Source: an uncultured Bacteroidales bacterium
Lineage (GTDB): Bacteria > Bacteroidota > Bacteroidia > Bacteroidales > P3
DNA length: 64,000 bases
Direction of reading: 5' to 3'
Assembly (NCBI GenBank): GCA_944321735.1
Contig: CALUMK010000003.1
Span: 62,001 to 126,000 of the forward strand
Of this stretch, positions 14,615 through 19,502 are shown piece after piece; positions within the stretch are counted from its first letter, which is position 1; each line of letters begins with the position of its first letter. The position numbers and the translations under genes are program-made. The notes beneath the pieces are model-generated. The model was not told the DNA's origin, did not search any database, and saw only the letters and a list, made by a program, of their open reading frames with translations.

Positions 14615-15682
14615 ATGGCAGTCAGTATCAATACGAAAGAGTTGGAGGAACTGCTCCGGACCGTGCCTTATACCCAGAATGTGATGCTGGTGGGGCGGCA
14701 TGGCATCGGCAAGTCGCAGATTCTGGAACGCTATTTCAGCACGCAGGGGCAGAAGGTGGTTTCTTTGTTCCTCGGCCAGATGAGCGACCCCGGGGACTTG
14801 ATAGGTATCCCGCATAAGAACGAGAAGACGGGAAAGACGGAATTCATGCCGCCTTATTGGTTTCCGTTGGACGGGCATCCTATCGTCTTGTTTTTGGATG
14901 AGTTGAACCGGGCGCGGCCGGAAATCCTGCAGACTATCATGGATTTGGCTTTGAACAAGAAGCTGGCGGGGCGTTCGCTGCCGGAGGGCAGCCGTATCAT
15001 TTCGGCGGTCAACGAGGGCGACGAGTACCAGCTTACCGACTTGGATCCGGCGCTGGTGTCGCGTTTCAATGTCTATTATTTCCAGCCGACGGTGGCCGAA
15101 TGGGTGGCTTGGGCCAGAAGCAAAGGCTTGGATGGCCGGGTCGTCGGTTTCATTGAGAACCATGAGGATTATCTGGACGGGGAAATGCTGCGGATTCTGG
15201 ATCCGGGATTGGAGAAGCTGCCCGACCGCCGGGCTTGGGAACGTGTCTCGGAAGTGATGGTACGTACCGCTACGCCTACGGATACCACCAAGAAGATTGT
15301 GGCGGGCATCGTGGGAGCCAAGGCGGCAGCGCGTTTTTTCGAGAGCATTTCGGAAGAGCGGGTCTTGAGCGCGCAGGAAGTCTTACGCGATTTCGAGGCG
15401 GTCAGAGAGCAGGCTTCGCATTACCGGGTGGCGGAATTGGCGGTCTTGAACGAAAGCCTTTTCCGTTACCTGGATCAGTTGCCCGAAGCCGATTTTGCCG
15501 GTACGGTGGCCGGAAACCTGTTGGCCTACGTGTCTTGGCTGGTCGATAAGGGTTACCGGGAAGCCATGGCGCAGTTCTGCAATGTCTTCGAGAGCGCCCA
15601 GTATTCCCATGCCAATTTCCTGATTCTGCAGGCGGCGCCGGAGGTGTATTCTAGGATTAGCGATTTCATCTCCAACTTATAG
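14615..15682 (+). CDS. MoxR-type AAA+ ATPase
   Basis: This 355-residue ATPase of the MoxR class has Walker A GRHGIGKS (27-34), Walker B with Asp95 and Glu96 (IVLFLDELNRA), sensor-1 Asn133 and an arginine finger at Arg150 (SRF). The lid domain follows. MoxR ATPases act as chaperones that work with VWA-domain partners and load cofactors or remodel complexes. Here a VWA gene lies 400 bp away, convergent. The unknown 244-residue protein is directly upstream. The stop TAG is followed at once by a hairpin element (15683-15808). Confidence 0.93.
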   Translation: MAVSINTKELEELLRTVPYTQNVMLVGRHGIGKSQILERYFSTQGQKVVSLFLGQMSDPGDLIGIPHKNEKTGKTEFMPPYWFPLDGHPIVLFLDELNRARPEILQTIMDLALNKKLAGRSLPEGSRIISAVNEGDEYQLTDLDPALVSRFNVYYFQPTVAEWVAWARSKGLDGRVVGFIENHEDYLDGEMLRILDPGLEKLPDRRAWERVSEVMVRTATPTDTTKKIVAGIVGAKAAARFFESISEERVLSAQEVLRDFEAVREQASHYRVAELAVLNESLFRYLDQLPEADFAGTVAGNLLAYVSWLVDKGYREAMAQFCNVFESAQYSHANFLILQAAPEVYSRISDFISNL

Positions 15683-15808
15683 GTTGGCGGGTGATAACGG
15701 GCAATCTGCTTCGTTGCGAGCCTTGTCTGGCTCGGTCACGTACTCAAGTACGCTCCCTCGCCATCCGCGGCTCGACGCCTCGCATCTTGCCCGTTATCAC
15801 CCGCCAAC
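15683..15808 (+). repeat. stop-flush hairpin element, copy A
   Basis: This is a 126-bp inverted repeat that begins on the base after the TAG stop of the ATPase gene. The outer arms are a perfect 22-bp inverted pair (15683-15704 with 15787-15808). Inside are TCTGC/GCATC partial pairs, an arm GCGAGCC/GGCTCG, and the core TCACGTAC-TC-AAGTACGCTCC. Copies B (19381) and C (15985, minus) share this design. No T-run follows. It is not a standard terminator and I know no name for it. Confidence 0.85.
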
Positions 15809-15847
15809 GCCGACGCGCCGGACGGCTTCGATTATTATTGAACAAAG

Positions 15848-15872
15848 TCAGAGTGGGTTCGATTGGATTTTG
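15848..15872 (+). repeat. shared tail downstream of element A
   Basis: TCAGAGTGGGTTCG followed by ATTGGATTTTG resembles the stretch 19568-19591 after element B. It lies 40 bp after the hairpin in A and 66 bp after it in B. The rest of 15809-15984 shows no gene. Confidence 0.5.
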
Positions 15873-15984
15873 CGTTCGCGGAAGATTCTATGTAGATGTC
15901 GATAGTGTGATGTCTGAATTGATTATTTGAGTTTTGAGGCTTGATCTGATGATTTGCGGGTTGGCTTTTCGTCCCGCGGGTCGG

Positions 15985-16110
15985 GACGGCGTGTGAGCAG
16001 GGGCAAGATGCAAGGCACGCGAGGGTGAGAAAAGCGGAGCGTACTTTGGTACGTGAGCATTTTCGAATCCCTCGCGTAACGCCGCAGATTGCCCCTGCTC
16101 ACACGCCGTC
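15985..16110 (-). repeat. stop-flush hairpin element, copy C
   Basis: This is a 126-bp inverted repeat with perfect 22-bp arms (15985-16006 with 16089-16110). Read on the minus strand it begins in the last three codons of the VWA gene and supplies its TGA stop. The core TCACGTAC-CA-AAGTACGCTCC and the GCATCTTGC block are the same as in A and B, while about six positions of the outer arm differ from A with matching changes in both arms. The inner arm is CGCGAGGG/CCCTCGCG. Confidence 0.85.
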
Positions 16111-17484
16111 AAGGAAGCAGGAGCGACTATTAGGGAACGAAGAAACCCAACCATGCCGCTCAAAAAAAGCCCGGTTGTTGAAGACCCAGAGAATCTTGGT
16201 TCGGATGTTCTTCTTGAGCCGGGGCAGGGCCGCGAAACCGTCCGTGCAGATGATAAGCCCGTCGTAATCCCCGTCCTGGCAGGCGTAATCCATCACCGCC
16301 TGGTAGTTGGTCCCGGCTCGGCCCAAGACGGCCACTTCCTTCATGGCCCGTTTCAGGCTGAGGGGTTCGCCCTTGATATCTGAATCGAATTGAATCACAT
16401 CGATTTTCTCTATCCCGTATTTGAAAAAGCGGTTCACCATGCCAAAGAACTGCCGCAGACTTTCAGAAGGCACCGAGCCGCTTACGTCCACGGCAACCAA
16501 GAGCCGCGTGGAGAACTGGTGGCGGCTGCCCATGTTGTCGAAGCCGTAGCGGCGGCTGGGACGCATCCGGGTCAGTTGGCGGCGGCTTGAAATCAGCGAG
16601 CCACGGAAACCGTTCAGGATCCGGCTGGCATCCACTTTGGTCTGGGTGGAGGCTACGATCATCTCTTTCATCCGCCCTTTGAGGCTGCCCCAGGCTTGGG
16701 TCTGCTCGGCCACTTCCACCATCCGGTTGATTTCTTCCTGCATCAGCTGGTCTTCGTCCCAGAGTTCGGCGGCTTGCCCGGCCTTCTCCTGCATCTGTTG
16801 CAGGGCGGTCATCTTCTTCTCCGGTTCGTTTTCCCCTTTGCCGCCTCCGGTCGGGGTGCTCTGCTTGGCGGAAGTCGAAGCCGTGTCGCCTTCTTTCAGT
16901 CCCTTGGGGCTTTTGGTGTTCTCGTTGGGTGAACCGGCCCCGCCGGAGCGGCCTTCCTCGTCATCCACGTGTCCTTCTTCCTGCCGGTCTTGCTGTGCAT
17001 CTTGGTTCTCCGATTCCTGTTCGCCCGCTCCGGCGTGCTCGTCGCTCATGCCGGAATAGGATTGGCCCAATGGCAACAGGCAGCGGTAGTATTCTTCGAA
17101 AGCGGCCGCGTATCCGGGAAAAGTGATGCCTTGGAAGTCGTCCCGGCAGAAAATCCTGACCTTGGGCTTGTAATGGTCTTGGAGCACCAAGTCGCTGGCC
17201 CAGTAGCAGACATCCTTGCGGACGGGCTGGGGCTGGCGTTGGTAGGGATGCTTGAGCAGGATGCGGATCATTTCCAGTCGCAGATACTCTTCCAACTGGA
17301 GCTGCTCCAATTCGGCCACCCTGGCCGGGTTGTATTCGATCCGGCCTTTGCCGCAGCGCAGTACCGTCCGGCTGTTTTGCTCCTCGGTTCTCAACGCGCA
17401 TAGCTTGTGGCTGCAATAGACATTGAACAGCAGAGGCTCGGTCAGGAACCAGTTTTCGGCAATATGGCGGAATCTTTCTTCCAT
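16099..17484 (-). CDS. VWA-like protein (DUF2201-type), likely partner of the MoxR ATPase
   Basis: This 461-residue protein has an N-terminal helical domain, a long acidic and polar linker (about 148-225), and a C-terminal VWA domain with the metal-binding DxSxS at Asp333, Ser335 and Ser337, Thr392 in GTNY and Asp415 in ICTDG. DUF2201-type proteins often carry a HExxH-like motif in the N-terminal part; here the corresponding place reads RLEMIRILLKH, so the metal site seems lost. The start lies inside a 70-bp tandem repeat. It is convergent with the ATPase gene. The final codons are inside hairpin element C. Confidence 0.85.
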   Translation of the reverse strand: MEERFRHIAENWFLTEPLLFNVYCSHKLCALRTEEQNSRTVLRCGKGRIEYNPARVAELEQLQLEEYLRLEMIRILLKHPYQRQPQPVRKDVCYWASDLVLQDHYKPKVRIFCRDDFQGITFPGYAAAFEEYYRCLLPLGQSYSGMSDEHAGAGEQESENQDAQQDRQEEGHVDDEEGRSGGAGSPNENTKSPKGLKEGDTASTSAKQSTPTGGGKGENEPEKKMTALQQMQEKAGQAAELWDEDQLMQEEINRMVEVAEQTQAWGSLKGRMKEMIVASTQTKVDASRILNGFRGSLISSRRQLTRMRPSRRYGFDNMGSRHQFSTRLLVAVDVSGSVPSESLRQFFGMVNRFFKYGIEKIDVIQFDSDIKGEPLSLKRAMKEVAVLGRAGTNYQAVMDYACQDGDYDGLIICTDGFAALPRLKKNIRTKILWVFNNRAFFERHGWVSSFPNSRSCFLDGV

Positions 17485-17751
17485 GCAGGTGGTTTTGAGT
17501 GCTTTTCCCGTTTCGGAGGCCGATGCCGAGCCTTTCAGCGGAATCTTTCTTCCATGCAGATGGCTTTGAACGCTTTTCCCGTTTCAGAGGCGATGCCAAG
17601 CCTTTCAGCGGAATCTTTCTTCCATGCAGATGGCTTTGAACGCTTTTCCCGTTTCAGAGGCGATACCGAGCCTTTCAGCGGAATCTTTCTTCCGTTCAGA
17701 TGGGCTTTGAACGCATCTGCCTTTTGGGAAGCCGATGCCAGGCCGTTTGGC
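17469..17751 (-). repeat. 70-bp tandem repeat, four copies, at the VWA gene start
   Basis: Copies begin at 17469 (71 bp), 17540, 17610 and 17680; the second and third differ at two positions and the fourth is diverged. On the minus strand each of the first three copies carries ATGGAAGAAAGATTCCGC. In copy 1 this is the VWA start codon. In copies 2 and 3 the same codons are followed by TGA, so they are decoy six-codon frames. Copy spacing of 70-71 bp changes the reading frame. Confidence 0.9.
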
Positions 17752-18153
17752 GACCTGCTTGTGGCTGCGGTTGGCGATGGCTCGGTTTCCGGATTGAAAA
17801 GCAGCGCGAAAGTAATGAAATTGCCCGATTGTTGATAAATCGGGGACGGGCGGGCGCTTCCGGGGCTTGCAGAAACCGGCATTTGCAGTAATTTCGCAAA
17901 CTGTGTAAATTTGCCTTGTTGGATGTTAAAAGCAAGGTTTCCAATTTTTTTGCCGCTTCTTCAGGAGGAGTTGAGGTAGTCTGCTTTTGGCATCGGACTA
18001 CATTCACTCCATCGAACCGGAGCGGGAATTTCTGTTGAGGAAGACCGATTTTGGCATCGAACGCTTTTGTTGCGACCTTTTAGGCATCGCATGTTTGATA
18101 GGCGCGGCGCGGGCGTGAACGCAAATAAAGACTTGATCGCAAAAAGACATCCG
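17752..18153. other. divergent control region of the VWA gene and sdaA
   Basis: No gene is seen. It holds the sdaA promoter (17882-17913) and a long leader of about 235 bases before sdaA. The leader includes a possible 18-codon frame (17923-17979) and three copies of a GGCATCG-containing motif (near 17987, 18052 and 18082). Confidence 0.5.
17882..17913 (+). promoter_or_regulatory. Bacteroidales-type promoter before sdaA
   Basis: TTTG at 17882-17885 and TAAATTTG at 17906-17913 are 20 bp apart, an exact match to the -33/-7 pattern. The transcript would start near 17920 and have a leader of about 235 bases. Confidence 0.65.
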
Positions 18154-19380
18154 ATGAAAAGTATTTGCCAAATCTACAAGATAGGGAACGGCCCTTCCAG
18201 CAGCCATACGATGGGACCCATGCGAGCCGCTACGGTCTTCAAGAGAAGATATCCGGATGCCGACCGTTATTCGGTGAGCCTTTACGGAAGCCTGGCTGCC
18301 ACGGGCAAGGGACACCTTACCAACGAGACCTTGATGCATGTGATGGGCGAGGACAAGCTGACGATTCTCGAATACCCGGGGATTTTTCTTCCGGAGCATC
18401 CTAATGGGATGATTTTTCAAGCCTATAATGCCGAGAACGAGACGATTGGGGATTGGACGGTGTTCAGCGTGGGGGGCGGAGATATTCGCGAGAAGGGGTC
18501 GAACGAGATTTTCCTGGAAGAGGGCAGTCCTTATTCGAACGAGGAAATCTACGAGTTGCATACGATGAGTGATATCCTGCATTGGTGTCGCAAGAACGGG
18601 CGGACGTTGTGGGAATATGTGGATTTGCATGAGAAGCCGGGCTATTTGGAATATTTGCACGAGGTGTGGGAGGAAATGAAGCAGAGCGTGCAGAACGGCT
18701 TGGTGCATGAGGGGATGCTGCCGGGCGGCTTGCACCTGCAGCGCAAGGCGGCGCAGTACCATATCAAGGCGCAGGGCTATGACAAGTCTTTGCGCAACCG
18801 AGGGTATGTGTTCAGTTATGCGTTGGCGGTGGCCGAGGAGAACGCGGCGGGAGGCCGGATCGTGACGGCGCCTACCTGCGGCTCGGCGGCGGTATTGCCG
18901 GCTGTGATGTATCATTGCGTCAAGAATTACGGTATTGCCGAGGAGAGGGTGATCCGGGGGCTTGCCACGGCAGGGCTGATTGCCAATATTGTAAAGACAA
19001 ACGCTTCGATTTCAGGGGCCGAGGTGGGATGCCAAGGCGAAATCGGAGTGGCTTGCGCCATTGCCAGCGGTGCGGCCAACCAGATTTTCGGCGGGACCAC
19101 TTACCAGATTGAATATGCGGCTGAAATGGGCTTGGAACACCATCTTGGCATGACCTGCGACCCTATGTGCGGATTGGTGCAGATACCTTGCATCGAGCGT
19201 TGTGCTTTTGCGGCGGTGCGGGCCTTGGATGCCAATACCTATGCGAGCCTGTCGGATGGGCGGCATCGGGTGAGCTTCGACGAGGTGGTGGCGGTGATGA
19301 AGCAGACGGGGCATGATTTGCCGAGTTTGTATAAGGAGACGAGTATGGGGGGGTTGGCGTTGATGAATTCGGAATACTAG
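18154..19380 (+). CDS. sdaA: L-serine ammonia-lyase (serine dehydratase)
   Basis: This 408-residue iron-sulfur enzyme deaminates L-serine to pyruvate and ammonia. Both halves of the split-type enzyme are fused. GNGPSSSHTMGPMRA at the start and the cysteines in TCGSAAV, VGCQGEIG and MTCDPMCGLVQIPC are the family marks and cluster ligands. The start ATG at 18154 fits the conserved MKSICQIYKIG; earlier ATGs at 18067 and 18091 lie in frame but are not conserved. Its TAG stop is followed directly by hairpin element B. Confidence 0.96.
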   Translation: MKSICQIYKIGNGPSSSHTMGPMRAATVFKRRYPDADRYSVSLYGSLAATGKGHLTNETLMHVMGEDKLTILEYPGIFLPEHPNGMIFQAYNAENETIGDWTVFSVGGGDIREKGSNEIFLEEGSPYSNEEIYELHTMSDILHWCRKNGRTLWEYVDLHEKPGYLEYLHEVWEEMKQSVQNGLVHEGMLPGGLHLQRKAAQYHIKAQGYDKSLRNRGYVFSYALAVAEENAAGGRIVTAPTCGSAAVLPAVMYHCVKNYGIAEERVIRGLATAGLIANIVKTNASISGAEVGCQGEIGVACAIASGAANQIFGGTTYQIEYAAEMGLEHHLGMTCDPMCGLVQIPCIERCAFAAVRALDANTYASLSDGRHRVSFDEVVAVMKQTGHDLPSLYKETSMGGLALMNSEY

Positions 19381-19502
19381 GTGGCGGGTGATAACGGGAA
19401 ATCTGCTTCATTGCCAAGGGTTCAGGCTTGGTCACGTACCTAAGTACGCTCCCGCGCCTTCACCCTTGGCGGCTTTGCATCTTGCCCGTTCTGACCCGCC
19501 AC
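19381..19502 (+). repeat. stop-flush hairpin element, copy B
   Basis: This 122-bp element begins on the base after the sdaA stop codon, as copy A does after the ATPase. Its left end is almost identical to A for the first 40 bases. Outer arms pair with several mismatches, so this copy looks slightly decayed. The inner arm is GCCAAGGGT/ACCCTTGGC, different from A but still complementary. The core is TCACGTAC-CT-AAGTACGCTCC. Confidence 0.85.

Follow-up and report, generated by a model that had tools for sequence, protein, structure and literature searches.

An uncultured Bacteroidales bacterium carries, within the 64-kb window analyzed here (64,000 nucleotides; GenBank assembly GCA_944321735.1, contig CALUMK010000003.1, positions 62,001 to 126,000), three hairpin elements at the ends of genes, copies A, B and C (126, 122 and 126 nt, respectively), which belong to a high-copy family with the tip and flanking boxes of the enterobacterial repetitive intergenic consensus (ERIC) repeats. 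We give roughly an even chance to the interpretation that A, B and C are ERIC-type repeats, likely non-autonomous mobile hairpins that would be mobilized as the strand opposite the mRNA and probably inserted at TA. We call the strand of each copy on which the tip reads as given here, for A, B and C the strand of the upstream gene, the tip-reading strand, and its complement the opposite strand.

The core pattern CACGTACNNAAGTACGCTCC, searched with up to two mismatches in the 2.71-Mb assembly, occurs at 81 places, 50 of them exact, compared with none for the reversed-pattern control, and in many variants the tip stem is still paired (CATAC/GTATG, TGTAC/GTACA, CGCAC/GTGCG). A covariance model (R1; weak automatic structure, 25 pairs) built from the alignment A2 of 80 of the 81 copies, L037 being left out as cut by a contig end, matches at least 112 places in this genome at E ≤1e-4; all model counts given here are lower bounds, as at most 150 candidates per genome were scored. 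Genes were called by two simple scripts, one relying on codon usage and one on length. With the codon-usage caller the upstream gene lies on the same strand in 70 of the 79 copies that have one, and no copy falls within a called gene or between divergent genes. A stop codon occurs within 40 nt of the hairpin foot on the tip-reading strand in 63 of 81 copies (33 TAA, 18 TAG, 12 TGA), within 60 nt in the reverse orientation in 4, and in neither orientation in 14. The length-based caller finds a stop at the foot of 51 of 76 copies read forward and none of 76 reversed, against 154 of 8,640 random positions. The prediction of many copies with an end-of-gene bias, made in a preliminary description of this DNA, is thus borne out in this genome. 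A T-run (at least five T in the 8 nt past the hairpin) follows 8 of 79 copies on the tip-reading strand and 10 of 79 on the other; none follows A, B or C, in agreement with that description, and the family was not classed with the intrinsic terminators.

All three window copies were recovered where the preliminary description had placed them, on the same strands, with A and B beginning one base past a TAG and C supplying the end of its gene (GAC GGC GTG TGA). Its statement that the copies share the orientation of their gene holds for the tip sequence and fails for the better-folding strand, which is the opposite one. Folding energies on the tip-reading strand are -75.3, -67.5 and -83.0 kcal/mol for A, B and C (z of -10.3, -7.9 and -12.2; in each case none of 200 shuffles reached this stability), and -87.7, -72.5 and -90.6 kcal/mol on the opposite strand. 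At the gathering score, Rfam returned a single match in the window, a tRNA elsewhere, and none at the hairpins. The 17-nt core with up to three mismatches matches three times in the window, compared with 0.55 expected, and 3 of 100 shuffles also reach three; the core alone within the window is weak evidence, and the genome-wide count is decisive.

The preliminary description knew no name for this element; the suspicion that none exists fails, as the element agrees with ERIC, also called IRU or RU-1, in length, tip, boxes and location between genes. Read from the foot toward the tip, the hairpin has outer arms some 20 bp long, then the box pair ATCTGC-TTCGTTG / GCCTCG-CATCT, the middle arms and a tip of the form TCA-5 bp-4 nt-5 bp-CTCC. 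ERIC repeats have been known since 1990-91 and serve routinely for typing. The 127-nt E. coli ERIC consensus holds, in order, CTGCGTTGG, TCACTTACTTATGTAAGCTCC and CCGCCTTGC (Table 1a of PMC2759123), and ERIC primers are printed in a part of PMC3696847. Local alignment of the consensus with the copies of the window's genome gives a best score of 35 (maximum of 200 shuffles, 33) and a mean of 22.3 (maximum 19.2). The model built from this genome matches ERIC of Klebsiella (2.1e-7) and E. coli (1.2e-3), and loci of Scalindua (1.3e-20) and a Selenomonadales (2.6e-20), E-values that are flattered because most of the matched loci were fetched by their tip. The range of ERIC is given as Enterobacteriaceae and Vibrionaceae in a passage of the review PMC10969869; the window belongs to Bacteroidales, a host that is not gammaproteobacterial, and we therefore file the copies as ERIC-type and not as ERIC proper. 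In the open-licence literature searched we found no paper on ERIC-type elements outside Gammaproteobacteria and nothing on a wide host range, strand asymmetry or modular build, and AGTACGCTCC was absent among the matches listed in open-licence papers. These three features are new relative to the preliminary description.

It is the opposite strand, missing from the mRNA of the upstream gene, that folds better, in 77 of 80 copies of the window's genome (mean of -65.2 versus -55.2 kcal/mol), 21 of 23 in Scalindua, 27 of 27 in Fulvivirga, 25 of 25 in Listeria and 87 of 95 in a cross-phylum set that still includes some loci of the window's genus. DNA parameters agree (76 of 80, 22 of 23, 27 of 27, 25 of 25 and 86 of 95, respectively). 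Copies within one genome share ancestry, and the weight is therefore carried by 35 non-redundant copies from other genera, 34 of which fold better on the opposite strand. When the tip was replaced alike on both strands, the opposite strand still folded better in 26 of these 35 and in 56 of 77 copies of the window's genome. The internal loops of the opposite strand are purine-rich: its mismatches are purine-purine in 666 cases versus pyrimidine-pyrimidine in 94 in the window's genome, and 284 versus 38 in the 35 other-genera copies (34 copies versus 0). The GAG/UGA beside the tip stem and the GA/GA beside the box would form tandem G.A pairs.

Variability across alignment A2 is highest at the ends and lowest at the tip. 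In a plain MAFFT alignment 75.3% of cells pair, compared with 58.8% after shuffling and 33-44% in slid versions, and changes occur on both sides in 44 of 51 pairs overall and in 22 of 24 of the outer stem. Similarity correlates between outer arm and outer arm (r 0.59) and between middle and middle (r 0.61), with an r of 0.06 between outer and middle arms that is reached by 6 of 500 permutations; the outer and inner modules shuffle almost independently. A single-site comparison of 79 elements of the window's genome with 26 of relative G001 (~95% identical) gave two pairs, L005/L209 and L033/L213, with the same outer arms and a wholly different middle. In the pair L019/L199 the two copies differ by a block that agrees with the other arm in just one of the genomes, as a template-switch correction would leave it; the covariation was therefore not taken as proof of selection, and RNA selection alone is a doubtful source of the arm pairing. 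A further proposal, that the outer arms are host terminators invaded by the inner hairpin, found no support, as bare outer arms appeared neither in the G001 comparisons nor at empty sites.

Several loci show additional arrangements of these parts. At L069:3025-3220, compared with L214 after the same upstream gene, G000 has a whole element plus an apparent 3' half, from the tip onward, of the element retained there by G001 (L214). Three tandem elements with 135-bp spacing occur at L049:2956-3351, and comparable arrays at G077:C1:1077421-1077957 (about 172 bp) and G001:C28:30638-31266 (185 bp). A subfamily (L013, L022, L043, L045, L078, L163) has the middle TATCGAG...CTCAG and a common tail, AAATCCCTATTT or close to it, beyond the hairpin, which implies that the unit may be longer.

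The window belongs to the same genus as Candidatus Pullibacteroides excrementavium; the same-genus relative G011 and the named genome G080 (from L113) carry copies at the same places. Core matches occur in 10 of 12 relatives within this genus and, elsewhere in the family, in 1 of 24 genomes. The tip pattern fetched at least 113 stretches from species genomes, and 35 genomes so fetched were searched whole: all have copies, because each was chosen for one, and the reversed control gave 0 in 35 of 35. At least three of these genomes are same-genus relatives (G063, G080, G085). Tip-pattern counts reach 213 in a deltaproteobacterium, 95 in Scalindua, 91 in Fulvivirga, 70 in a Verrucomicrobia metagenome-assembled genome (MAG), 58 in a Rickettsia endosymbiont and 46 in Listeria fleischmannii. 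The own-genome model matches at least 149 places in Scalindua, 127 in the Verrucomicrobia MAG, 56 in Clostridiaceae M8S5, 47 each in the Rickettsia endosymbiont and Listeria fleischmannii, 44 in the Selenomonadales, 28 in Klebsiella and 1 in Vampirovibrio. In unselected samples the tip is rare and patchy: among other Bacteroidota 2 of 246 have it (control 1 of 247), and among Pseudomonadota 19 of 299 (the centre included; control 2 of 299), figures that undercount because the searches use one stem sequence.

Of 35 non-redundant tips from other genera, 15 have both boxes at the expected distance (shuffles, mean 0.33 and maximum 3; reverse complement, 0), and the remaining 20 have the tip without both boxes as defined here. 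A stop stands at the foot of 34 of 106 other-genera tips read forward versus 3 reversed (1 both), compared with 155 of 10,100 random positions. In a count by host, Scalindua has 10 of 23 forward (2 reversed) and the Rickettsia endosymbiont 4 of 6 (1 reversed). Twelve loci whose shared contigs or near-identical arms point to the window's genus were dropped from the other-genera counts. Two apparent host phyla were rejected as mislabelled records, 'Ruminococcus flavefaciens' JAMPAI being contigs of G010 and 'Lentimicrobiaceae' JAFLTI contigs of G002; these wrong species names on public records (L076, L087, L134) belong to same-genus relatives of the window. At L073, L083 and L125, ATCAAACTCTCC, which we take to be the complement of the 16S rRNA start, lies upstream of the tip, and some of these loci may sit just before rRNA operons.

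Copies A and B are absent from most relatives that could be compared. Site B is empty in G002, G005, G006, G007, G009 and G010, where 4-11 nt separate the dehydratase stop from the next start codon; in G004 the sequence diverges ahead of the stop, and the upstream gene end was not recovered in G003, G008 and G012. In the stretch read at site A, no element follows the same gene in eight relatives (G002, G005-G010, G012). G001 and G011 have the element at both sites. The tight spacing at site B bears on the suggestion that the hairpin is a 3' untranslated region (3'-UTR) structure, kept for termination, 3'-end protection or cleavage-site exposure of the mRNA, since in the six relatives B would stand between nearly abutting genes, and a terminator there would cut an operon. 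This suggestion accords with the gene-end place and orientation bias in this genus, with the 34 versus 3 other-genera tips, and with passages of PMC2229807 and PMC10969869 in which an ERIC at a gene 3' end in Yersinia alters transcript levels, in an orientation-dependent manner, through an RNase E site. We nevertheless judge it unlikely: the fold that is both better and conserved belongs to the strand missing from the upstream mRNA, T-runs are rare, and the bias is missing in several phyla.

At site B of G001 an extra copy accompanies B at the same stop, reading TA, element, TA. Passages of PMC2229807 and PMC2759123 give ERIC TA termini and a target duplication, and we take TA to be the insertion target at this site. 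Both the flanks of the extra copy and the published termini would also suit a classic miniature inverted-repeat transposable element (MITE), transferred in double-stranded form by a transposase that targets TA and recognizes the ends of the element; the strand asymmetry would then reflect a later RNA role. Variability is highest at the ends of the element and lowest at the tip, whereas an enzyme reading the ends would need the opposite, and we rate a MITE slightly below the 3'-UTR structure, as improbable. There is only a small chance that the opposite strand is transcribed from a standard antisense-RNA gene regulating the 3' end of its neighbour, an idea suggested by the end-to-end match of Rfam family RF02818 (V_AS5, Vibrio RNA AS5, antisense type) to ERIC of E. 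coli and Klebsiella, on the strand that folds better, and countered by scores far under its 96-bit gathering threshold and no match in the window's genome.

The loops of one strand vary least and the ends most, the copies are mosaic and patchily distributed, and A and B are insertions at stop codons. A non-autonomous element, read in trans through its folded strand, fits this better than a 3'-UTR device or an end-read transposon, and a role as a simple terminator or in the 3'-UTR is less likely. In this mechanism the folded strand opposite the mRNA of the gene would be mobilized, as RNA or single-stranded DNA, by a trans-acting machine that presumably reads the loops of its tip and boxes, and insertion would probably take place at a TA dinucleotide within a stop codon or next to one. 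The orientation bias could arise from selection against that strand in mRNA or from the mode of insertion. The transfer mechanism of ERIC is described as not elucidated in a passage of PMC2759123.

A number of observations weigh against this mechanism. Once the tip is masked, the ERIC consensus is matched as well by 5 of 200 shuffles as by the real copies, and the paired changes in the arms could stem from template-switch correction and not from selection. The gene-end rule is uneven among hosts: in Listeria fleischmannii a stop stands at the foot in 2 of 25 copies, stops being mostly shifted to 84-112 nt off; in Fulvivirga it does so in 1 of 28, and at 64-93 nt reversed stops outnumber forward ones; and the orientation rule fails there, in the Verrucomicrobia MAG (0 of 6) and in the deltaproteobacterium (0 of 5). 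A strand test on G.U versus A.C gave 18 versus 48 among isolated mismatches of the window's genome, a trend that reverses once internal loops are included, since a few fixed box positions then outweigh the rest, and the test was therefore not used as evidence. Mirrored TA pairs number 34 in 78 copies versus 107 for AA and 85 for TT, and are not enriched overall, with 22 of the 34 located 61-65 nt from the tip centre; the TA interpretation rests mainly on one site. Movement is seen solely as presence or absence between relatives, and no partner enzyme was found, no search for one having been made.

We also put forward, tentatively and with less than even confidence, that a superfamily of hairpin 'SINEs' (after the short interspersed nuclear elements) extends across bacteria, with ERIC as one of its branches; a common machine would paste the opposite, folded strand at stop-codon TA, and inner and outer modules would be swapped like cassettes. 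If so, the superfamily would span Bacteroidota, Pseudomonadota, Bacillota, Planctomycetota and Verrucomicrobiota, and the purine-rich loops of the common tip and boxes would form solely on the strand opposite the host gene. The occurrence of tip and boxes in many phyla, with one defined folding strand, makes the old question of ERIC transfer testable and tells which strand to probe for the reading machine; high-copy genomes in which its gene might be sought are those of Scalindua, the Verrucomicrobia MAG, Clostridiaceae M8S5, Listeria fleischmannii and this genus.

Table 1. Coordinates of the window copies, their conserved parts and the adjoining open reading frames (ORFs)
Feature	Position	Strand	Basis or remark
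Copy A, whole hairpin	15683..15808	+	First base follows TAG of ORF 14615-15682
Copy A, 5' box ATCTGCTTCGTTG	15704..15716	+	Sequence; conserved in alignment A2
Copy A, tip TCACGTACTCAAGTACGCTCC	15736..15756	+	Sequence, core search
Copy A, 3' box GCCTCGCATCT	15777..15787	+	Sequence; alignment A2
Copy C, whole hairpin	15985..16110	-	Contains terminal codons and TGA (16099-16101) of ORF 16099-17484
Copy C, tip TCACGTACCAAAGTACGCTCC	16036..16056	-	Sequence, core search
Copy B, whole hairpin	19381..19502	+	First base follows TAG; ORF end 19380; next gene starts 19646
Copy B, tip TCACGTACCTAAGTACGCTCC	19432..19452	+	Sequence, core search
ORF upstream of copy A	14615-15682		AAA/MoxR-type ATPase, named by eye
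ORF ending in copy C	16099-17484	-	VWA-type protein, named by eye
ORF upstream of copy B	ends 19380		L-serine dehydratase, named by eye

Four 70-nt direct repeats stand in a row at window positions 17450-17730, covering the start of the ORF that ends in copy C and the DNA upstream of it.

Among known systems the closest is ERIC (IRU, RU-1), likewise an imperfect palindrome of about 126-127 bp, mostly intergenic, with the same tip and the boxes CTGCGTTG and CGCCTTGC, and likewise folding better on the strand opposite the tip reading. The two differ in host, Bacteroidales here and enteric bacteria or vibrios for ERIC, and in the tip stem, CGTAC here and CTTAC in the ERIC consensus; the copies here also have outer arms that are paired, highly variable and reshuffled relative to the middle, and a close stop-codon link. 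RF02818 scores 28.2 and 30.6 bits on E. coli and Klebsiella ERIC (E of 0.011 and 0.0024) and finds 27 places in the Klebsiella genome, with ERIC copies scoring 28-53 bits; at E ≤0.01 it finds nothing in the window's genome, nor in 8 of the 9 further genomes searched. At L197:404-527, V_AS5 looks like a Vibrio ERIC on its better-folding strand. If RF02818 was defined from transcripts, as we presume, the folded strand would be transcribed in Vibrio.

The attC sites of integrons are also hairpins right after a stop codon whose folded, active strand is the one antisense to the gene. In attC-like fashion our copies mostly lie at a stop and fold better on the antisense strand; the RYYYAAC / GTTRRRY core was found at either foot in 0 of 79 copies, and here the tip is conserved and the ends are variable. 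Repetitive extragenic palindromes (REP), bacterial interspersed mosaic elements (BIME) and the repeats linked to REP-associated tyrosine transposases (RAYT) are similarly palindromic, intergenic and present in high copy, but the element here is several times longer, and their foot tags GTAG and CGTC each occur in 2 of 79 copies; the family was classed neither with REP/BIME nor with attC sites. The Rickettsia palindromic elements, Caulobacter CIR, Brucella Bru-RS and rhizobial RIME are short palindromes of 100-150 bp, and the hosts of these repeats also hold the tip described here or have relatives that do.

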